Of a stretch of DNA of 64,000 nucleotides, positions 3,001-58,961 are shown piece after piece (positions within the stretch are counted from its first letter, which is position 1; every line of letters starts with the position of its first letter). Location of the stretch: positions 1 through 64,000 of the forward strand of contig JAADER010000062.1 in assembly GCA_013153275.1 (NCBI GenBank). The letters are read 5' to 3'. Made by a program: the position numbers and the translations under genes. The notes beneath the pieces were generated by a model that ran no database searches, was not told the origin of the DNA, and saw nothing but the letters and a program-made list of their open reading frames with translations. Source of the stretch: Thermoproteota archaeon. Its GTDB lineage: Archaea > Thermoproteota > Thermoprotei > Thermoproteales > Thermocladiaceae.

Positions 3001-3175
3001 ATCAGATGTCGTAATGTGGGTATACATATGGAACGCTACAGAGCAGAAGTTCGTCTACGCATCAACATACAAGACAGGTAAATGGACTGCTGACAAGATA
3101 TTTGTGCCACTAGGAAGCATAGTGATAGCGTATCCGACGAAGTCAGTAACTGTACCAATAGTACCAACAAGCTAA
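2..3175 (+). CDS. Large secreted S-layer-like envelope protein, partial at the left window edge
   Basis: The frame is open to the first base of the window, so the start lies upstream. The visible N-terminus is the hydrophobic core of a signal peptide (about 20 residues of L, T, V, I, A), followed by a serine run and a threonine run. The remaining roughly 1,030 residues are rich in T, S, V, K and Y with many N-X-S/T sequons and paired cysteines, as in archaeal surface glycoproteins. No C-terminal membrane anchor is visible. The C-terminal part (KGLNMFAMPG, LEPGW, then VMWVYIWN and a closing strand) resembles the end of the next gene, so the two may share a terminal domain. Codons are strongly A-ending (ACA, GTA, CTA, ATA), as expected for an abundant protein. 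Whether it forms the lattice itself is inferred. Confidence 0.75.
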   Translation, partial: LATIIIATLLTVVALVTLLPIGGKPLVAATSSSSSSSTTTTTVGGTFKIVSGRTCSIYTNPLFPPQARSLLEAGPYCTEVIKPEKPFASFTVEVLPEKSLTFEEGQTFTLEIYLKPQSDTVFDILKISRIDVKMASASSPDSYFAESSSCTVTVKSVEGVKEYYISCSMRTSKTVKNLNDFYIYVNMTQTSLSLSKAEYIELDLAKLVISPLKYQSGIYFVESDHGQLVITTPASGTSTVVKLNALPFVSITLNKYAFEANTKSTLEITIYGNWSESTYSEISAIKLTSGQNGYPIKILGGVCKETAGTQTIAVYPVPEQSDTTVYIPAQGQSIDKFTQGVKVVCTVYVNFTLPKGVSVEAPKLTVDIKAPSGSIFQASTSTFTVSEVTRTLYLMVYKPTKSITIQETEKESTSPIYVKSLDMTLINNTISVSYTDNVYSTLSSVNNKWTASTSIETATLTAPFYNMYNPTTTLTACVETLSGKVLACKSVSYSLSTSSPPSLAVDLLIMKNGKVNETMLKLLEMNDNVSVIVEAKSPYSTLSSTTYHIIPYRGPITTLENVTASGKKLTYAKGYYWFTKKDKTVTLYVVVNVTGKHESSSYFTSHVTENVYINGSLTSISCSIPKNEKPTFSKKTTTTSIIIKCPISTSNLGNMANVSVKVIENSSYYTWLNVSLRKVTVTPPVATFKYLKEVGYNVGVYDIKPKETPTVGIDHYNLTLIVNGKKYLEVEAPVKELESPYYYFCTNFTVEVTYTPQGSTKPKTETLVVTACLPANVSLVTTTNSTLAKLLKPVVKPIVSSKFKVTKFSLTVKSADTAKSGAIVFGDNEVLVVPPAGVEKVTLNITSVNIGGIPSEPVSATIDYGVAPDAYYILYLQKGLNMFAMPGALEPGWTAIMKDNVSSVVVSAYCLKPGAITALEPCIVYKVKPVTTTTTGEIKPTVYYVLAKKNAVFVIPVTYHYMGLPMAMPVTVSAFSYNVIPMGLSKMPLLNMTSTIVPAPSDVVMWVYIWNATEQKFVYASTYKTGKWTADKIFVPLGSIVIAYPTKSVTVPIVPTS

Positions 3176-3203
3176 TCTAAACGTAGCTCTCTAATATATC
3201 CTA

Positions 3204-3224
3204 ATTTTCCTTCTCTTTTGTTTT
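3204..3224 (+). terminator. T-rich tract after the first envelope gene
   Basis: A pyrimidine tract with several T runs lies 29-50 bases past the stop codon. Archaeal transcription commonly ends at T-rich tracts without a hairpin. A new TATA-like element follows, so this is a plausible transcript boundary. Confidence 0.4.
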
Positions 3225-3290
3225 AAATTTCTAATATTTCTCTCTTTAGTTTTCTTTATCCTACTTTTAGGTTTAGACTATTGAGTAATG

Positions 3291-3301
3291 CTTTTAAATT
3301 T
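3291..3301 (+). promoter_or_regulatory. TATA box of the cohesin-like envelope gene
   Basis: The element CTTTTAAATTT has its centre about 25 bases ahead of the ATG codons at 3318 and 3324. In leaderless archaeal transcripts this spacing puts the start of transcription at the start codon. It argues against the in-frame ATG at 3288, which lies upstream of the box. Confidence 0.5.
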
Positions 3302-3317
3302 CTTCACGATCCTAGTA

Positions 3318-6059
3318 ATGAGTATGAATAGACGTACACTACTAACGATACTGGTTCCGCTAGTAATAGTTATGGCATCACTAATGACTGTACCCCTAAA
3401 TGCTCAGTCAACTATGGTAACAATTAAGGGAACAGTGTACGTGTACTATAACACCACTAAGACGTATGTTCCCATAGCGAAGGTTCCTGGAGTAAACGTG
3501 AGCAAGCTTGTAATATTCTTCAAGCCTACATTAACAAGCTTCGAGATCTATAAGAACTCTACATATGTGGCTCAGGTTCCAGCTGAGAAGCCTATATCAG
3601 TATATATTGCACTTGCTGAGAATCCTCTAACAAAGAACGTTCCAGCATACTTCAACATTAGTGGAGTACTAATGCACACGTACACGTTCCTACCAACACT
3701 CTTCGGAGCTCCATCAACGGTGAACATAGTAGTTAACTACTCTGAGCTCATGAAGATCATTCCACCACCAGCAGTATTCAAGGTATCGGTCGTCAAGACA
3801 ATTCCAACAACAGTAACTGTAGGAGAGACATATGTGCTAAGTGTAAGTGTGAAGAACGTTGGTAAGGCGACTGGAACAGACAACCTGTGCCTATATATTA
3901 ACAAGACATGCGTATGTAAGAAAGTCACAGTATCACCTGGCGAGACCAAGACAGTAGACTTTGCAGTGAAGTTCAATGCTACTGGAACTTATCTACTTAA
4001 GCTCACTTCAAATGGTGCAAAGGTCTGGTCAGAGACTGTTAAGGCTATATCTAAGCCGAAGTATGCCTACAAGGTAGTCTCAGTACAAGTGCCCTCTCAG
4101 TTCATATCAGACGTGCCTGGAACAGTCACTGTAACGATAGAGAATACAGGAACAGCACCAGTAACCCTAGCAGTTAAGGCTGTAGCCCTCCTAAAGTCTC
4201 CCGTAGGCAACATAACCTCATCTACAGTATCTAAGAACGTAAGGATAGAGCCCGGAAAGACAGCAAAAGTATGTCTGAGCGTTGTATTCCACGGTGTAGG
4301 TACAGGATATGTTGACGTGTATGTGAACAAGAGCCTAGTCTACTCGAAGTCTGTTAAAGTGATCTATGTATCTGTTAAGGTAGCTTTTGCAAAGAAGAGC
4401 TACATACTGACACTTGGAGAAGAGAAGAATGTAACTCTACTCTTACTAAACGGTTCAAAGGCTGCTGGAGTCAGCGTGACGATACGCTATAATTCAAGTG
4501 TGATAAATGTAGTTGCCGTCAAAGCTGGAGACTTCAAGAGCAGGGTCAGTGGACTAGCTACATACAGTATAAACAACAAGAAGGGAATAGTAAAGATAGT
4601 GATAGCTGGATCCACTGCATGCGGAGTAAATAAGACAGTCATAGCCTACATAACGTTGAAGGCAGTATCCGTAGGAAAGACAACACTAAGAGTAAACGGA
4701 ACATGGTCAAACGTTAACGGTCAGGTATTCCCAGTAATGGGAGTACCAGCAAACGTGACAGTAACAAAGAAGGTCGCAATATTCAATGGAACAATATCAG
4801 CACCATCAACAGCATATGCTGGCGTACCATTCAACGTCAAGGTCACAGTAAAGAATATTGGTAATGCTCCAGGAAAGGCATCGGTCGAGATAAAGTACGA
4901 TAATAAGGTATGTGCTGGACCCGTAGTAACTCCAGTACTGTCACCAGGAGAGACGTGGACACACACGTTCAAGTGCACCATATCTACAACTGGAACATAC
5001 ACACTATCACTAGTAGTCAATGGCACAGTTAAGGCAACAACATCTGTCACGGTGAAGAAGGTTCCACCATACAAGGTATACATGACAGTCATGCCAAAGA
5101 TGTATGTGTACTGGGCAGGATATCCAGTAACACTGAACGTGACAGTGGTGCCAAAGGTCAAGACAAGCACTGCAATAAACATAACAGTCGTAGAGGTTAC
5201 ACCATATGAGGTCAAGGTCGTAGGCTCTCTATTTGAGCCTCTAGTAGTAGGAAAGGCATACTCAATAGTCAAGAAGATACTACTACCAACATACACGACA
5301 ACTGGAGAGATAATAGTATATGTGAACGGTGTACCTGTTAACAGGACAAGCTTCAAGACAACTGGAGTAGCCGTAGTAGTAAAGCCACGTACATACGAGC
5401 TGATATCAGTACCAGTACTACCACTATCATATGCATCAGAAAGCCAGTCACTACCAGCCCCACCACCAGGTTCAGCACCAGTAAAGCTACCAACCCTCGC
5501 ACAAGTATTCTCGCTAGTATATGATGTGAGAACAGGAAAGAAGGTCAACCCATGGTCAGCAATCGCAGTATACTACTATAATAGGGCGGCATCATCAGCA
5601 CCATTCTACGTAGCTATATCACCAACATCGACACCGGTGAGACCAGGAATGGGCCTAGTAGTGTACTCAGCATATCCACATGAGCTGGTACTGATAGTGC
5701 CAATAAACGTCACAGCAGTATCCTCAACAACACTCAAGACACTACTAATGAAGACTCTAGAACTAGCATACGTACCATCACCACTAGAGCCAGGATGGGC
5801 AATAGTAGGACCAATAGGACTAGTACCAGTAAAGCTACTGCCATCAAAGTTCCTGAACCTGACACTATACTACACAGAGTCAACAAGCAACAGCGCCTGG
5901 ACAACTGTAGAGACAGTGACAACAGGAGACTACGTATATCCAGGAAAGGGCTACTGGATATTCTGGAACCTACTGACAATACATGCACTACACCAGAACA
6001 TGGAGAGCTACCTATCACAGTACTATTCAGTCCTAGGATTCGCCAAGTCCTGCAAGTAA
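3318..6059 (+). CDS. Secreted envelope protein with CARDB-type repeats and a cohesin-like domain
   Basis: About 913 residues from the ATG at 3318. ATG codons at 3288 and 3324 are alternatives; the TATA box at 3291 favours 3318 or 3324. Residues 1-30 are a signal peptide ending near LNAQS. Three CARDB/APHP-like beta-sandwich repeats lie at about 153-243, 250-348 and 488-585, each with a VTVGE- or SPGET-like turn and a KNVG or KNIG motif. Residues about 352-485 look like a cohesin fold: a VSVTIRYNSS strand, VVAVKAGDF, then GIVKIVIAG and KTVIAYITLKA, the hallmark cohesin order. The C-terminus has the ELISVPV...LEPGW...GKGYWIFWN pattern common in prokaryotic surface proteins. It follows another envelope gene on the same strand. 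A partner bearing a dockerin is encoded at 30401-33214. The cohesin call rests on pattern reading only. Confidence 0.7.
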   Translation: MSMNRRTLLTILVPLVIVMASLMTVPLNAQSTMVTIKGTVYVYYNTTKTYVPIAKVPGVNVSKLVIFFKPTLTSFEIYKNSTYVAQVPAEKPISVYIALAENPLTKNVPAYFNISGVLMHTYTFLPTLFGAPSTVNIVVNYSELMKIIPPPAVFKVSVVKTIPTTVTVGETYVLSVSVKNVGKATGTDNLCLYINKTCVCKKVTVSPGETKTVDFAVKFNATGTYLLKLTSNGAKVWSETVKAISKPKYAYKVVSVQVPSQFISDVPGTVTVTIENTGTAPVTLAVKAVALLKSPVGNITSSTVSKNVRIEPGKTAKVCLSVVFHGVGTGYVDVYVNKSLVYSKSVKVIYVSVKVAFAKKSYILTLGEEKNVTLLLLNGSKAAGVSVTIRYNSSVINVVAVKAGDFKSRVSGLATYSINNKKGIVKIVIAGSTACGVNKTVIAYITLKAVSVGKTTLRVNGTWSNVNGQVFPVMGVPANVTVTKKVAIFNGTISAPSTAYAGVPFNVKVTVKNIGNAPGKASVEIKYDNKVCAGPVVTPVLSPGETWTHTFKCTISTTGTYTLSLVVNGTVKATTSVTVKKVPPYKVYMTVMPKMYVYWAGYPVTLNVTVVPKVKTSTAINITVVEVTPYEVKVVGSLFEPLVVGKAYSIVKKILLPTYTTTGEIIVYVNGVPVNRTSFKTTGVAVVVKPRTYELISVPVLPLSYASESQSLPAPPPGSAPVKLPTLAQVFSLVYDVRTGKKVNPWSAIAVYYYNRAASSAPFYVAISPTSTPVRPGMGLVVYSAYPHELVLIVPINVTAVSSTTLKTLLMKTLELAYVPSPLEPGWAIVGPIGLVPVKLLPSKFLNLTLYYTESTSNSAWTTVETVTTGDYVYPGKGYWIFWNLLTIHALHQNMESYLSQYYSVLGFAKSCK

Positions 6060-50889: not shown

Positions 50890-51564
50890 ATGCATAGACT
50901 AAACGTGACCATAGAGTTCAAGAACGGTAACGAGAGAGATATAGAGATAGCAGTAAACGAGCTCATAGTCTTCTCTTGGACGGGAAGGAATATAGATATA
51001 GTGAAGAAGCTTGTCGAAGAGAGAGAAAAGTATGGCATAAAACCTAGAACTATACCAGAGTACTATAGGCTACAGCCATACCTGATAACGACAAGCAACT
51101 ACATACGAAAGATATCGGAGACCCATGTCGGAGAGGTGGAGTATGTTCTCCTGATAAGAAACGAGGACGAGATATTTATCACTGTAGGAAGCGATCATAC
51201 GGACATAGACGCTGAAAGATGTAACATACTAGCTGGCAAGCACATGTATCCTAAAGTCGTTGCACGTAGAGCATGGCCGCTAGACGAGGTTGAGGGACAC
51301 ATAGATAAGATAATCCTGAAAAGCTGGATACTTGAGGACAGCAAGAAGACTCTCTATCAAGAAGGAAGTCTAAACATGTTAATAAGACCAGAAAAACTGA
51401 TAGAACAGGTGAGAGAGATCGTGGAGGACATGAGAAACGTTGTAGTGTTCTCTGGAACAATCCCGACAGTATCAGGTCAGCTTAAGGTCAGTGAGTACTT
51501 TGAAATAAAGATGATAGATCCGGTCCTCGATAGAGAGATATCACACTACTACTGGGTTGATTAA
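50890..51564 (+). CDS. DUF2848 family protein
   Basis: A 224-residue protein. VGSDHTDIDAERCNI followed by PKVVARRAW is the core pattern of DUF2848, a family with a fumarylacetoacetate hydrolase-like fold. Function is not established. A TTAATTAAAA element lies about 40 bases upstream of the ATG. The gene overlaps the convergent nuoN-like gene by 77 bases, a long overlap that may interfere with expression of one or the other. Confidence 0.72.
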   Translation: MHRLNVTIEFKNGNERDIEIAVNELIVFSWTGRNIDIVKKLVEEREKYGIKPRTIPEYYRLQPYLITTSNYIRKISETHVGEVEYVLLIRNEDEIFITVGSDHTDIDAERCNILAGKHMYPKVVARRAWPLDEVEGHIDKIILKSWILEDSKKTLYQEGSLNMLIRPEKLIEQVREIVEDMRNVVVFSGTIPTVSGQLKVSEYFEIKMIDPVLDREISHYYWVD

Positions 51565-52795
51565 AAACATGTAAAATATTTACACATTCTCGAAATATCT
51601 CTAACGGAAATAGAAGTCCTAAAACGATTACCAGCACTGTCAGAAGTATCATAAGCACAGTGAGAGCACGAGAGGCCTTCGACGCTTGATAAACCCTTAA
51701 TAGCCTAATATAGTAGGGCACCGATATCGCACTGTTGACCACCACCGCAATAGCAAGCCAGATCTGTCCGCCCTGGATAGCGTACCACACTATGAAGAGC
51801 TTAGGCCAGAAGCCTATAAGAGGTGGTATACCTATGAGAGACAGAGCATTTATAAGCACCATAGATCTCACTCCTCTCCCATCTGAATCTAGTCCAAGAA
51901 ATAATGCACATTTTGATATAGATACAGATAGTATCTGTAGAGCAAGAGCACCGAGACAGAGATCGACGAGAGACCTATCTAGAAAGCATACTGACAGAAC
52001 AGCTATGCCATATCCAGCCTGTGCTATAGAGGAGAAAGCTAAGATACGTTCTACATCGTTTGCAAATAACGCTCCAAGATTTCCTACGATCATAGTTATT
52101 ACAGAAAGGATAGAGATTATGGAAAAAGTTGAGAAACTGCTATCTATTCCTAGGCTAGCTAGAAGCCTTACAAAAACTATTACGGCAACAATCTTCATCA
52201 GAGATGAGAGGAACGCTACGGACTCTCTATCGCTCTTCTTATATACGTCGGGCATCCACATATGTAGCGGAACTACACCAATCTCATATAGTACCCCCAA
52301 CAGTATTAGGACAAGGCTCACAGCCCTCAATGCTGGAGCTACTATGAACATTGTTATACCAATCATCAATAATGTTGATCCTATCGCAGAAAAGGTTACA
52401 TACTTTACACAGGAGTATAGCGACTCTCTCTTCCTGCTTCTAGCCAGCAGAGGCGCGAAGAACGTTGATGCGAGAAGCCATAACGATGCTAGGGCGACAT
52501 AGCTGGATACTAGGAATAGAAATACCGTGAGATACGCTAGAGACACATATATGAGAGACTGCGCATATAGTAGACGTTCTTCAATTACCTCTAGAGAGAT
52601 CGCACATGAGAGAAGTATAATCAACACTGTCGCAATCAGTACAATGTAGTTAGGATAGCAGTACATAAATAGTGTAAATGGTACTGAAGAGAGAATTGGA
52701 GCAATAATCTTTACTACTCTCCTCAGTCTCAGAAGCCAGACTGCTATGATTGTTGAGAGCGAGAAAATTAACAATAGTGTCAACAGGTATAGCAT
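51488..52795 (-). CDS. nuoN: Complex I antiporter-like subunit, NuoN type
   Basis: A 435-residue membrane protein with about 13-14 helices. VVPLHMWMPDVYKKSDRES carries the conserved lysine region of proton-pumping Mrp-like subunits, and ERILAFSSIAQAGY is the second lysine or glutamate area (quoted in pieces). It closes the Nuo cluster and is nine bases after nuoL. NuoN, M and L share ancestry; N is chosen from position and length. Confidence 0.85.
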   Translation of the reverse strand: MLYLLTLLLIFSLSTIIAVWLLRLRRVVKIIAPILSSVPFTLFMYCYPNYIVLIATVLIILLSCAISLEVIEERLLYAQSLIYVSLAYLTVFLFLVSSYVALASLWLLASTFFAPLLARSRKRESLYSCVKYVTFSAIGSTLLMIGITMFIVAPALRAVSLVLILLGVLYEIGVVPLHMWMPDVYKKSDRESVAFLSSLMKIVAVIVFVRLLASLGIDSSFSTFSIISILSVITMIVGNLGALFANDVERILAFSSIAQAGYGIAVLSVCFLDRSLVDLCLGALALQILSVSISKCALFLGLDSDGRGVRSMVLINALSLIGIPPLIGFWPKLFIVWYAIQGGQIWLAIAVVVNSAISVPYYIRLLRVYQASKASRALTVLMILLTVLVIVLGLLFPLEIFRECVNILHVFNQPSSSVISLYRGPDLSSLFQSTH

Positions 52796-52803
52796 GACTA
52801 CAC

Positions 52804-54684
52804 TCAGAATAGTAGAAGTACTATAACTACTACCATCATAATCAGCACTAGCAGGACGCCAACATATGCGAGGTCTCTAACAGCCTTGTCAGTATGCAAC
52901 ATATTCACGATCTTACACAGCTTCTCTACAAAGACTCTCGGCAATCTTATATGGATCTTATAATCGATTTTCAAATCAAAGTTCCTAAATTTCGTAGCAA
53001 CCTTAAGAATATTGATACCATGGATGTAGGCATCTAGAGACATGAAGGCCCTATATATGGACATACAGAGCCTCTTGAATCCAAGTCCCATCACGCGGTC
53101 TACCAGGTATGGAAGTCCAAGTCTGAGCTTCAATATCCTAATTATGCGCATACTCTTCACGTAGTCTCTAAGATAGATACATGCTATGATTGCAGCTATA
53201 GCGACTCCTAGAGAGATACCTGTGAGGACTGTTACTCTCATATATGGGTGGAATAGTACAAGAAGTAGGTAGGGGAGAACCATCATTATTAGTGTGGGGA
53301 TCTCCATCGCGAGATCTTTCAACTCTACCTCGTCTATGCTCTCAACACCTCTACGACGTAGGTCCCAGAACGTGAGAATGATCTTCATGAGCAGAGCTAT
53401 AGATATCACGTGAGATGTGAATAGCAGAGGTATCATATACCAGGGAGAGTACTCTATAGACATCTCTGTCATAAGAAAACCAAGGCTAGGAACTACTACA
53501 CCAAAGAGATTAGCAGACGCCAATATAAGGGCAACAAAGCTAGGTTTAAACCTGAGAAACACTCTAACATCATCGATAAACCTGGTCTTAGATAGGTGCA
53601 TCATGTACCCACAAGTCATGAAGAGACAAGCCTTACTGAGACCGTGTGCAAGCAGGATTATCAGACCAAGCATCATGAGAGACGTGGCTCCAGTAGACCA
53701 GTATAGTAGCGATACGTATAGTAGGAGGCCTACATATATTGTTGTAGATGCTGCAAGTATGACCTTTACCTCTCTTGATGCTACTCCAATGAGACCTGAC
53801 ACTATTGTTGATAATATTACATATATGAGCACGATCTCAAGCAAGAGGCCGTGGGGACAGGGGACGTAGGACCCTATCTTGAATATCGTGAAGGCTCCCG
53901 CATTCACCAGAGTTGTTGAGTGTATCATGGCTGAGGCTGGCGTAGGTCCCGCCATTGCTGTGAAGAGCCACTCAGTAAAGGGGACCTGTGCTGAAGGTAC
54001 AAGAACTGCCAATATTATGAAAATGTCGAACATCATGGATTTTAAATGACGAAGAGAGGTCAGTAATAGAGACCCTGTTCTTGCGAACGCTATGCAGGAT
54101 GCTACAAGCATTGTCGAGGTCCCAAGGCTGGTTATGACTATTGCTCTGTAGGCGGCTGCAGATGGTGACCATAGTAGCACCATATCTCTCATAGATATCC
54201 CCTCTCCAACATATCTCTCAGGCTCGTCACGGTACCAGTGCCCTATCAGCGCGTAGCTACATAGCTCGAGAACGTTCCACGCGATCGTTATTGTTATCAG
54301 GTCTCCAGCAAATAGGAGGAGGAGTGTTCCAAAATGCATTAGCCCGCTGAAGAAGAAGAACCAGCCTCTTCTATAGTCATCCCATAGATATCCTATCGAG
54401 TAGATCTCGACTAGCAGTATTATTAATGTTGCTGCTATAGCATACATATCCCATATGCGGCATATATGTAGCTCGAGCACTATATTGCTGTAACTGAAGT
54501 ACTGTATAGAGAGACCAGTTGCAAGATGTGGAAGACACACGATGAGAAGCGCCAGCGTCAATGCTGTCAGAGTAGTCAGGATTATGCCTCTTCGAGAGAA
54601 TATCTCTGCTAGAGATCCTAGAAGAGGTAGAAGGATTGATATTATGAGAAGCTGCTCTACAGGAACCATATCATCACCTGCCAA
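52804..54684 (-). CDS. nuoL: Complex I antiporter-like subunit, NuoL type
   Basis: A 626-residue membrane protein with the longest C-terminal extension in the cluster. VPFTEWLFTAMAGPTPASA and MIHSTTLVNAGAF are strongly conserved in NuoL/ND5, and HGLSKACLFMTCGYMMH follows. The extra C-terminal part ends in another hydrophobic helix, as in the lateral helix of complex I. It would form a distal proton channel. It overlaps nuoM by 11 bases. Confidence 0.9.
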   Translation of the reverse strand: MAGDDMVPVEQLLIISILLPLLGSLAEIFSRRGIILTTLTALTLALLIVCLPHLATGLSIQYFSYSNIVLELHICRIWDMYAIAATLIILLVEIYSIGYLWDDYRRGWFFFFSGLMHFGTLLLLFAGDLITITIAWNVLELCSYALIGHWYRDEPERYVGEGISMRDMVLLWSPSAAAYRAIVITSLGTSTMLVASCIAFARTGSLLLTSLRHLKSMMFDIFIILAVLVPSAQVPFTEWLFTAMAGPTPASAMIHSTTLVNAGAFTIFKIGSYVPCPHGLLLEIVLIYVILSTIVSGLIGVASREVKVILAASTTIYVGLLLYVSLLYWSTGATSLMMLGLIILLAHGLSKACLFMTCGYMMHLSKTRFIDDVRVFLRFKPSFVALILASANLFGVVVPSLGFLMTEMSIEYSPWYMIPLLFTSHVISIALLMKIILTFWDLRRRGVESIDEVELKDLAMEIPTLIMMVLPYLLLVLFHPYMRVTVLTGISLGVAIAAIIACIYLRDYVKSMRIIRILKLRLGLPYLVDRVMGLGFKRLCMSIYRAFMSLDAYIHGINILKVATKFRNFDLKIDYKIHIRLPRVFVEKLCKIVNMLHTDKAVRDLAYVGVLLVLIMMVVVIVLLLF

Positions 54685-56155
54685 AAACCTTTACGAAATT
54701 GTATAGAATTATCTTACCTATAGCAATATGAGCCACTGGTGGAAACATGAGGACTATCGTCAGTAACGCAAGAACTATTATAGGAACGTCCATTGAGTAT
54801 ACAGGTCTCACTCTATGTATATGACGTGCAACTCCAAAGTAGAGTCTTCTCATAGCATAGAAGCAGTATGCTATTGTTATCATTATAGAAAGTATGTATA
54901 TGGATATTAGACCTATCTTCCATGGATATTGAACTAACATAACTTCGTCAGCTATAGCAAATGTTAGATAAATTTTTGATAAAAGTCCTATATTGAATAC
55001 ACCAGAGAGACTTATGAAGCCTATTATGCCTGCAACAGAGAGAGGCCTATACACATCGTAGAGGCCGAACAGGTTCTCGAAGTCTCTGAACCCGAGCCTG
55101 CTTATGCAGAATCCGCTGAACATGAAGAGGAGGGACTTCGCTAATGCATGTGCTACAAATACCAGTACTAGTGCTGCCTCACCAATATAGTTACACATCG
55201 ATATGCATATGAGCATTGATCCCATGTGCGATATCGATGAGTATGCGAGAAATCTCTTGATATCTCTCTCGCTGAGCGCCATCATTCCTCCATAAATCAT
55301 CGTCACTATGCCATAGGTCATCAAGTATGGAGACATCGCTTTCATGATTGGTACATAGAATGTATGAGTGATCTCCATTAATACGTACCCAGCCACTCCT
55401 ATATGTACTGGACTCAATATAGCGCTCACGGGTGACGGCGCCTCAGCGTGAGCCCATGGTAGCCAGAAATGTACTAAGAACGTTCCCATCTTTATAAGTA
55501 ACCCAACAAGTATGAGACTTAGAGCTATTATAGAGGTAGTATCATATATCGCCGTCACGTGCTCTATCAGGAAGGTGCCAGTCCAGACATGTATTAGCAG
55601 GATACCGCAGAGAACGAGGAGAGATGCCATCTGGCTCCACACTAGGTAGAGGAGAGCTACTCTGTACCTGTTTCCATAACCATAGAAGAGTATCAGAAGG
55701 AAACTCGTTATCGCGGCAAGTTCTAAAAATATGAACATCAGTATGAGATTTCTGCTGTATAACATTCCGAGAAGACCCTGTATATATAGCACGTAGAGTC
55801 CATAATATGTTGATAATTCAGTACTTATATGGAGTTCTTCACATCTATGCTCCATATAGCTTAGAGAGAACACAGAGACAGCTGAGGCAACTACCCCCGA
55901 TACTAGTATCATGAATGCAGAGACAGGCGTTATCCACAGTATCAGAGGACCCACATACGGTGCCCTTACTAGAATCTCACATAGCGTCGTCATGTTGTTA
56001 GCATAGTAGTACAGTGCTGGTACAGTCATTATTATGCAGGCTAGTGTTGAGAGTACACATCTCGTACAGTTGTTTACTATTTTTCCTCTAAGTAAGAAGA
56101 GTAGTACCGCTATGATGAGTGGTATATATATTAGTGATACTGCTATCATGATCAT
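54674..56155 (-). CDS. nuoM: Complex I antiporter-like subunit, NuoM type
   Basis: A 493-residue protein with about 14 helices. GTFLVHFWLPWAHAEAPSPV and SAILSPVHIGVAGYVL are the conserved channel motifs, and ERDIKRFLAYSSISHMGSM follows. It could also be called MrpD-like, since these families intergrade. It overlaps nuoK by four bases (ATGA). Confidence 0.88.
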   Translation of the reverse strand: MIMIAVSLIYIPLIIAVLLFLLRGKIVNNCTRCVLSTLACIIMTVPALYYYANNMTTLCEILVRAPYVGPLILWITPVSAFMILVSGVVASAVSVFSLSYMEHRCEELHISTELSTYYGLYVLYIQGLLGMLYSRNLILMFIFLELAAITSFLLILFYGYGNRYRVALLYLVWSQMASLLVLCGILLIHVWTGTFLIEHVTAIYDTTSIIALSLILVGLLIKMGTFLVHFWLPWAHAEAPSPVSAILSPVHIGVAGYVLMEITHTFYVPIMKAMSPYLMTYGIVTMIYGGMMALSERDIKRFLAYSSISHMGSMLICISMCNYIGEAALVLVFVAHALAKSLLFMFSGFCISRLGFRDFENLFGLYDVYRPLSVAGIIGFISLSGVFNIGLLSKIYLTFAIADEVMLVQYPWKIGLISIYILSIMITIAYCFYAMRRLYFGVARHIHRVRPVYSMDVPIIVLALLTIVLMFPPVAHIAIGKIILYNFVKVFGR

Positions 56156-56460
56156 CTGCTCTCCTCTACTAGGGCTCTATATCCCGATCTTGATAAGTAG
56201 TATACTACTCCAATCAGGAGAGTCGTCTCCATTACCGACGCTGCAAGATATGCAAACACAAGCTCTGAGGCCTGTATTGGCTCTATAAGGTACAGTACTG
56301 ATAGAGACACGAGGCCAGAGAGGAACAGCGTCTCTAGACCTATTATCAGTCTGACGAGGTCTCTGCTCAGTCCTATTATACATGTTCCAGCTGTGAGTAG
56401 CATGAGCGCTGTGGGTAGTAGAATTGTGATAATGTTCACTGTGTGCTCCCTCTTCGGCAC
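56152..56460 (-). CDS. nuoK: Complex I subunit NuoK
   Basis: A 102-residue protein with three helices. It has the acidic residue in LIIGLETLFLSG, the NuoK signature, and a second one in a later helix (AASVMETTL). It belongs to the proton path between the hydrophilic arm and the antiporter subunits. It overlaps nuoJ by 25 bases and nuoM by four. Confidence 0.88.
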   Translation of the reverse strand: MPKREHTVNIITILLPTALMLLTAGTCIIGLSRDLVRLIIGLETLFLSGLVSLSVLYLIEPIQASELVFAYLAASVMETTLLIGVVYYLSRSGYRALVEESR

Positions 56461-56918
56461 AGTTGTGTTACTATTAAAAACATTACTACTGTGAGTACTA
56501 TTATGAGTATCGTGATAGTTCTAAATTCTAAATTATTTAACATTGCTGATACCACGCTAGATATGGAGTAACTTACACCGATATACTTACCACTTGGATA
56601 CTTAATAAACATTCCCAGAAGAGTCCCAAGGACAGTCCCGAGAACAATCATAGCCGCCGCATGTGTAGGACGAAGAGAGGGCTCTACAGACTCCATCGCG
56701 GATGCTGCGACAACTATGAATGTTATTACAACTCCAACATATACTATGAGTATCAGTATCGTTAAGAAGAGGTTCATTGACAAATATGCTAATGCAGCAA
56801 CACAGACAGCCGACACTAACAGTAAGAGCGCTGCGATGACGTTGTCCTTCACTTTGACTATAATGTACGATGACACTATGCAGAGCACAGATATGACTAG
56901 CATTATCAGATAGATCAT
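56436..56918 (-). CDS. nuoJ: Complex I subunit NuoJ
   Basis: A 160-residue protein with about five helices. ILIVYVGVVITFIVVAAS is the conserved third helix of NuoJ. Position between the nuoBD fusion and nuoK is as expected. The C-terminus overlaps nuoK. It follows nuoBD after 34 bases. Confidence 0.85.
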   Translation of the reverse strand: MIYLIMLVISVLCIVSSYIIVKVKDNVIAALLLLVSAVCVAALAYLSMNLFLTILILIVYVGVVITFIVVAASAMESVEPSLRPTHAAAMIVLGTVLGTLLGMFIKYPSGKYIGVSYSISSVVSAMLNNLEFRTITILIIVLTVVMFLIVTQLCRRGSTQ

Positions 56919-56952: not shown

Positions 56953-58620
56953 CTATCTGTCGCATTCCGGCGGAAAGTGACCGAAGCTTCCGTATATGGC
57001 TGGAACGTCAGCAAGTCTGTACCCTATCATCGACTGCATCATGCCTAGAAGGTTATAGTACGATGGAGTTACTAGTCTCATCTTATATATGTTCTCTGTG
57101 TCACCTTTACTGATAACATATGTATATGTTAGACCTCTTGCTGCCTCTATCTGTGCCTCAGCGACACCTCTGGGAAGTACGGTGCGTGAAAGTACTCTAA
57201 GAGCGTCCTGAGGTTTCTCTATGTCTATATTGAGTTCTCTAGCGGCTGATATGATTTCACTAGATATGACTGGTCCTTCAGGCATGTTATCGAGTATCTG
57301 TGATATTATTCGCATGCTCTGCTCTATCTCTAATATTCTGATAATCATTCTAGCGTATGCATCCCCAGAATCTTGTACAGGAATCTCGAACTCGACTTTG
57401 TCATAGTACTCGTAGCGTAGATCCTTTCGAACGTCATAGTATATTCCCGAGGCTCTCATGTTTGGTCCAACAATGTTGAGCTTTCTAGCATCATCTCTGG
57501 ATATGACCCCCACATCTCTGAGTCTTGCCTTCACTGCTGCATTTCTCACAAACATGTTTTTGAAAGCTCTTAGCCACTCTGAGAGGTTTCTCAGGTAGCT
57601 ACGGACTAGCTTCATGGTCTCTCTGCTCATGTCATATCGTACTCCTCCTGGGATTATGCATGTTGGTGCGTGTCTAGAGCCTGAGTATCTGCTGAAGATC
57701 TCGCATATTCCTTCTCTGATCTCGAAGCACCACATGTATCCTGTGCTGTGTCCAAGCATTATGGATAGTATTCCAAGATCGTAGAGGTGTGTTCCTATTC
57801 TCGAGAGCTCGGCGAGTAGGGTTCTTATTGCTCTTGCTCTTTCAGGTGTTTCAATTTTGAGGAGCTTCTCCACTGAGTGCACGTAAGGTAGCACGATGTT
57901 TATGGGGTCTGTGAGAGAGACTCTCTCGAGCATTGGTATCACAGATATGTAGTGTCTCTGCTCTGCTATTTTTTCAACTCCTCTATGTACGTATCCTGGA
58001 TCTGGCTCTACATCTCTTATGATGTCTCCCTCCAGAAAGACGGTGAACCTGAAGTGGCCACTCCCAGGATGTTGAGGCCCTATTATGAGGCTTATAAGTC
58101 GCTCGTTATCTGAAAGTTTCTCAACCTTCTCAATTATGAAGAACTCTGTCCTCACCCATCTCTCTCTTCTGCTCTCGCTATCGCTCTTGGATGCCTTCTC
58201 GATAACTCTCCTCTGAAGCTCAACTACTGCCTTTAGGACTGCCTCAGGAAGAGGAGGACAGCCTGGAACATATATGTCGACTGGCACGACGTCACATGCT
58301 CTGACGATATGGTAGCTTCCCGAGAACACGCCGTAGTTTGACGCGCAGGATCCCATCGCTATCACGTACTTCGGCTCCGGCATCTGCTCATATACTAACC
58401 TGACATGTTTCGCCATTTTTATACTTATTGTACCTTCAATGATCATTATATTACACTGTCGGAGAGCCGGCATAGGAAGGACTCCATGTCTCTCAGCATC
58501 AAATCCTGGAGCGAAGACGTGAGCAAACTCTACCCCACAGCATGCAGTGACCAGATGTACAGGCCAGAGTGAGTATCCTATAGCCCATCTAAGTACCTTA
58601 TCTATCACCTTCATACCCAC
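56953..58620 (-). CDS. Fused NuoB-NuoD, complex I-like
   Basis: A 555-residue single frame. Residues 1-150 are NuoB: ACCGVE (C27, C28), MGSCASNYG (C92) and VPGCPP (C121) would hold cluster N2. After a short charged linker (SKSDSESRRERW), residues about 175-555 are NuoD: IGPQHPGSGHFRF, a DPGYVHRGVEKIAE segment, and an ending PPECDR where NiFe hydrogenases have DPCxxC. Both hydrogenase CxxC motifs are missing, so this is a quinone-type NuoD. No NuoC sequence lies between the parts. The fused product would form the quinone site. It overlaps nuoA by 10 bases. Confidence 0.9.
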   Translation of the reverse strand: MGMKVIDKVLRWAIGYSLWPVHLVTACCGVEFAHVFAPGFDAERHGVLPMPALRQCNIMIIEGTISIKMAKHVRLVYEQMPEPKYVIAMGSCASNYGVFSGSYHIVRACDVVPVDIYVPGCPPLPEAVLKAVVELQRRVIEKASKSDSESRRERWVRTEFFIIEKVEKLSDNERLISLIIGPQHPGSGHFRFTVFLEGDIIRDVEPDPGYVHRGVEKIAEQRHYISVIPMLERVSLTDPINIVLPYVHSVEKLLKIETPERARAIRTLLAELSRIGTHLYDLGILSIMLGHSTGYMWCFEIREGICEIFSRYSGSRHAPTCIIPGGVRYDMSRETMKLVRSYLRNLSEWLRAFKNMFVRNAAVKARLRDVGVISRDDARKLNIVGPNMRASGIYYDVRKDLRYEYYDKVEFEIPVQDSGDAYARMIIRILEIEQSMRIISQILDNMPEGPVISSEIISAARELNIDIEKPQDALRVLSRTVLPRGVAEAQIEAARGLTYTYVISKGDTENIYKMRLVTPSYYNLLGMMQSMIGYRLADVPAIYGSFGHFPPECDR

Positions 58621-58961
58621 TCCTCCAGCCTAGAGACATATCGTAGACCGAGAAGAATAGCAAGCGTTGTGAGTACTAGACATGGTGCGAGCACCATCAC
58701 GAGCTGAGTGACCTCCCTACAGATCGATAGGACAAGCATGTACAGTGTCACACACTCGAGGCAGACGGCCATGAACACGTACCCAAAGTACTGCATTATC
58801 AGCTTCTTCTTCACTCTATCCATTGGCGGGTTACCTGCCTCGAACCTCATGGACTTGACATCTCTATACGTTCTATATCTTCTAGACACTATGAAGCCTA
58901 TGGCTACTATAGCTGTTAACAGTAGTATGCATAATCCAGCATATATAATGACCCAGATCAC
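58611..58961 (-). CDS. nuoA: Complex I subunit NuoA
   Basis: A 116-residue protein with three helices. FEAGNPPMDRV and the following QYFGYVFMAVCLE are the NuoA signature loop and helix, where a glutamate at the end belongs to the quinone-coupled proton path. It is the first gene of the cluster, divergent from the NAD(P)H repair gene with 52 bases between starts. Confidence 0.9.
   Translation of the reverse strand: MIWVIIYAGLCILLLTAIVAIGFIVSRRYRTYRDVKSMRFEAGNPPMDRVKKKLIMQYFGYVFMAVCLECVTLYMLVLSICREVTQLVMVLAPCLVLTTLAILLGLRYVSRLEEWV

Follow-up and report, generated by a model that had tools for sequence, protein, structure and literature searches.

A nuoB-nuoD fusion conserved in a genus of Thermocladiaceae that keeps nuoC at a separate locus

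Gene fusions that join NuoB, NuoC and NuoD of complex I have been described in both archaeal and wider prokaryotic surveys. Among archaea, 47 assemblies are reported to carry NuoB-NuoC fusions, which in 10 cases extend to NuoD (PMC11237513). For prokaryotic complex I at large, a survey from 2025 lists NuoD fused with NuoC or with NuoB plus NuoC (PMC12361115). For Thermoproteus tenax, a second complex I gene set termed fqo/oor has been described (PMC3189178); it matches the second of two Nuo sets found in Thermoproteaceae-type genomes (family f2), referred to as set 2 in this text. Our literature search, with subscription literature mostly outside its scope, found no prior report of a fusion of NuoB directly to NuoD. 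The list of known fusions in complex I, with C-D, B-C and B-C-D, is extended by such a B-D join. We describe it here from a stretch of 64,000 nucleotides, called the window in the following (contig JAADER010000062.1, positions 1 to 64,000, assembly GCA_013153275.1), which belongs to a heat-loving Thermoproteota archaeon of the family Thermocladiaceae.

The fusion gene, nuoBD, lies on the minus strand at 56953..58620. It starts with GTG, ends with a stop codon at 56953-56955 and encodes 555 aa, with zero stops interrupting the frame from 58620 to 56953. The initial annotation had recognised in this one frame a NuoB with its four cysteines and a quinone-type NuoD, joined by a short linker. Pfam, NCBIfam and motif alignment all agree with that description, and the coordinates it gave are correct; the strand had been absent. 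The NuoB part comprises residues 1-137 (58210..58620, minus strand) and carries the [4Fe-4S] ligand cysteines C27, C28, C92 and C121, which are invariant in an alignment of 6 fused homologues. The linker follows at residues 138-172 (58105..58209, minus strand), and the NuoD part fills residues 173-555 (56956..58104, minus strand). Pfam detected Oxidored_q6 (NuoB) at residues 27-135 (E 4.8e-25) and Complex1_49kDa (NuoD) at 289-555 (E 6.8e-73). The NCBIfam models for NuoB (PRK06411 and TIGR01957) scored above their curated cut-offs across residues 3-144, as did the NuoD model PRK06075 across 177-555. Structural comparison agrees with this layout. Residues 6-140 align to solved mitochondrial NDUFS7 chains and residues 164-555 match solved complex I 49-kDa chains, which were also the best Foldseek hits of the predicted nuoBD model (TM-score on target up to ~0.9), a model with low confidence in its N-terminal B part.

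A NuoC domain inside the fusion, which would have removed the oddity of a B-D join, was ruled out by the Pfam and NCBIfam profiles: the two Pfam families named above are the only ones in the frame, and the NCBIfam model for NuoBCD, PRK13292, reached 386 bits against nuoBD, with a cut-off of 1156.

The window genome also carries two group-4 hydrogenase-type clusters with homologues of NuoC and NuoD, and nuoBD might on that account be part of a hydrogenase-like complex instead of a quinone-reducing complex I. We consider this hardly credible. The CxxC nickel motifs are missing at both ends of the D half, which has ERVSLTDP where hydrogenases have ERICGIC and closes with the quinone-type ending FPPECDR where they have the C-terminal CxxC. 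The D tree, too, places nuoBD inside the Nuo clade, apart from the hydrogenases. It is the only Nuo-type D found in the window genome, the remaining D-like matches being group-4 hydrogenases. Two features of archaeal NuoD emerged from the same alignments. At the position of the quinone-site tyrosine (DRLDYVS in mitochondria), near residue 236 in the NuoD part of nuoBD, nearly all Nuo-type NuoD proteins sampled from these archaea have Leu or Ile; in the GPQHP region of Nuo-type NuoD from the sampled archaea, the second His is displaced by one residue.

On the minus strand, the gene forms part of a run with the order A - BD - J - K - M - L - N, which extends from 58961 to 51488 and in which the genes overlap or nearly touch. 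NuoA (58611..58961, minus strand; Pfam Oxidored_q4 and NCBIfam NuoA models) overlaps the start of nuoBD by 10 nt. Downstream, also on the minus strand, follow NuoJ (56436..56918), with a weak NCBIfam NuoJ match (E 1.7e-4) and the same place in relatives, and a NuoK-like small membrane protein (56152..56460) that had no Pfam or NCBIfam profile match and is homologous to the K genes found at the same position in relatives; both calls rest mainly on position and weak matches. Three antiporter-like subunits complete the run on this strand, namely NuoM-type (54674..56155; Pfam Proton_antipo_M, 5.5e-48, and NCBIfam NDH_I_M), NuoL-type (52804..54684; Pfam/NCBIfam) and NuoN-type (51488..52795; Pfam/NCBIfam). 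NuoC, NuoH and NuoI are all missing from it, so that three subunits are lacking there and not NuoC alone. The NuoI gene of the window genome was found on a third contig (C41:1355-1819); a NuoI gene was retrieved for G000-G002, and in G003 and G004 there is a match beside nuoA. No 2-oxoacid oxidoreductase genes were recognised among the open frames of the window between 50000 and 64000. NuoF (PF01512) and NuoE (PF01257) of the NADH module were unmatched in G000-G003, which are incomplete MAGs, while control genomes were positive.

Close relatives have B and D as adjacent unfused genes, some of them overlapping or one stop apart, and it is conceivable that a lost stop or a frameshift merged two such genes during sequencing or assembly. 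Aligning the relatives, as the initial annotation had proposed, leaves this artefact with next to no probability. Intact nuoBD is present in each of the five species sampled from the genus, at 62-82% protein identity and with zero stops, and the linker differs between them by insertions and deletions in multiples of three, so that the frame is kept. The fusion is thus fixed in the genus; five intact copies from separate species assemblies rule out an assembly error, and the suspected sequence error at the B-D junction is set aside by the same copies. These genomes are incomplete MAGs (69-88.6% complete), that of the window, G000, having 1.39 Mb in 71 contigs and a completeness of 88.6%. Compared between G001 and G002, each half of nuoBD has a dN/dS far below 1, and purifying selection spans both. 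A search of the genome contigs with the nuoBD protein gave matches in only two genomes, both of the same genus, and in a plasmid search there were just ordinary Nuo genes among the matches listed.

The linker, about 35 residues long, is the least conserved part of nuoBD (21-71% identity between species) and had zero matches to Pfam families even at E 0.1. Its residues 146-165 have a pLDDT <50 and are predicted to be disordered. A charged and variable linker of this kind should tolerate cleavage, and separate NuoB and NuoD polypeptides could be made from the fused gene by proteolysis or from an internal start. We regard this as quite improbable, since the five species share no in-frame ATG, GTG or TTG at the junction and each of them preserves the reading frame.

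To place the fusion, we compared it with the Nuo genes of other Thermoproteota. Of the two Nuo sets in the Thermoproteaceae-type genomes, set 1 is split between two loci, one with B-C and the other with D-H-I-J-K-M-L-N. Set 2 typically has the order J-K-M-L-N, then three 2-oxoacid oxidoreductase genes, then I, H, A, B, D; here B directly neighbours D, and C is lacking. In a phylogeny of the concatenated B, D and H proteins, the window genus is sister to Thermoproteaceae set 2 (support 100/99), and a grouping of its Nuo proteins with those of its own family was rejected (p-AU 0.0036). In single-gene trees of B and D this relation is moderately supported (91/96 and 86/81), while those of A and C leave it unsettled. 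In the other genera of the family to which the window belongs (g2-g4), B is fused with C and D comes next, for example at L046:7576-8847, L048:9098-10222 and L054:8402-9493; NuoH lies at a distant locus in those genomes where this was checked (G005, G007). That C normally bridges B and D, as the initial annotation stated, is no requirement: in unfused relatives the two genes are adjacent with no C between them.

A second B-D fusion was found inside set 2 of G034, a complete genome from a Thermoproteus-type genus; the five other genomes of that genus have none. The AU test rejects a single clade, and with it a common origin, for the window and G034 fusions (p-AU 1.2e-5). Before the fusion, nuoB and nuoD had become neighbours in this branch of complex I, with no nuoC separating them, and the fusion would have arisen because of this; judged from gene order and trees, B-D adjacency appears to have come first and fusion afterwards, at least twice. 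A third case is provided by I-B-D triple fusions of 666-687 aa in G274, G376 and G379 (L071:4707-6770, L075:5205-7214 and L076:5877-7877), which belong to a distant clade and have a separate NuoC gene nearby. At the CxxC sites of hydrogenases, their D half has a single cysteine each (RVCVLD, DNCPADHDR). Together these cases show that direct B-D joins have at least three origins within Thermoproteota, with NuoC a separate gene each time.

A search of all 71 contigs of the window genome located the NuoC family in three places. Two of them are the group-4 hydrogenase-type clusters, on C47 (L006) and C51 (L005), whose large subunits have the RICGIC motif. In the C47 cluster, a fused NuoC-NuoD-type large subunit adjoins a gene that by eye resembles CO dehydrogenase. 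The third place is G000:C52:2729-3148 (L004), where nuoC is followed by nuoH (3145-4122) with a 4-base overlap. In trees, both proteins fall among the Nuo proteins of Thermoproteales and not with the hydrogenases. The initial annotation had called NuoC missing, which is true of the nuoBD gene cluster and wrong for the genome; its alternative, that C may be elsewhere, was borne out by this nuoC, which also rules out a loss from the genome. All five species have nuoC directly upstream of nuoH on a contig separate from nuoBD. Contigs can in principle be mis-binned in MAGs; that the C-H pair recurs in all five bins speaks against it here. The NuoC of the genus is under purifying selection in the pairs for which this was measured, with dN/dS about 0.1-0.2 (G001-G002: dN 0.115, dS 1.49). 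Further along C52, at L004:9799-12791, genes resembling by eye adenylylsulfate reductase B and A and a heterodisulfide-reductase-like iron-sulfur protein suggest a possible dissimilatory sulfur metabolism.

In all five species, NuoC ends right after a 'PxRK' motif ('PLRKD'; L004:2729-3148 and the equivalents in L050-L053), and the C-terminal tail of ~12-20 residues present in relatives' NuoC is lost in the window genus. Set 2 lacks an own NuoC in every genome examined (L044:718-12112, L055, L086, L087, L088), and the genomes of this family have one full NuoC each, beside set-1 NuoB. Both observations could be taken to favour a C-less complex I, in which the linker or an altered B-D interface does the job of NuoC. 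We judge such a complex very improbable. The linker, proposed initially as a replacement for NuoC, is short, unconserved, without a family and disordered by prediction, and NuoC is kept in all five species of the genus, paired with NuoH and under purifying selection. A weaker form of the idea is that the Q-module of set 2 and the window genus is largely independent of NuoC, set 2 being C-less or borrowing the set-1 NuoC, and that the B-D link and the tail-less NuoC reflect a loosened need for a scaffold. This, too, seems unlikely to us, if less remote.

Instead, it is very probable that the product of the lineage-fixed nuoB-nuoD fusion is a two-domain Q-module protein within an 11-subunit NuoABCDHIJKLMN complex, with NuoC supplied by the nuoC-nuoH pair and NuoI by a third locus, and that gene adjacency preceded the fusion. 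All 11 subunits customary in archaea (A, B, C, D, H, I, J-N) are encoded in the window genome, divided among three contigs. In the assembled enzyme, the terminal iron-sulfur cluster would sit in the B half, and the quinone pocket at the B-D interface would be completed by the D half, as in any complex I. The flexible linker of ~35 residues would merely tether B to D, while NuoC and NuoI would join from their separate loci. We infer that the products of the three loci assemble into one complex and that this complex reduces quinone; its electron donor would be reduced ferredoxin or a 2-oxoacid oxidoreductase.

In the structure of complex I, NuoB and NuoD lie directly side by side. The puzzle of a B-D fusion without C largely dissolves because of this and because the same genome has a nuoC that is under selection and paired with nuoH. 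We therefore read the system as an otherwise ordinary 11-subunit complex I that is mildly rearranged and in which adjacent genes have fused. The repeated B-D joins fit the direct contact of the two subunits. They also come with a warning, namely that the absence of NuoC from a cluster does not mean its absence from the complex.

How does nuoBD relate to the systems described so far? In NuoCD of E. coli and in NuoBCD (PRK13292), NuoD is likewise joined to another Q-module subunit. There, however, C is the middle or the N-terminal partner, and a NuoC domain is what the window fusion lacks. The archaeal Fpo/Fqo fusions B-C and B-C-D (cluster 482, PMC11237513; FqoBC of Archaeoglobus) also join neighbouring Q-module subunits within an 11-subunit complex, but they keep C beside B, whereas the window fusion links B straight to D. 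More similar in this respect is the I-B-D fusion, in which B is joined directly to D and C is separate. It differs by a NuoI-like domain in front, by an identity of only 33-35%, by its distant clade and by its adjacent C gene.

Closest to the window genus by the tree of B, D and H are the fqo/oor set of T. tenax (TTX_0203-0215; PMC3189178) and its Pyrobaculum-type counterparts. In these as in the window genus, B lies next to D with no C between, although in set 2 the two genes are unfused except in G034. The fqo/oor genes share a single cluster with NuoI and 2-oxoacid oxidoreductase genes and lack an own NuoC, whereas in the window genus the cluster has no such oxidoreductase next to it and a NuoC of its own is present.
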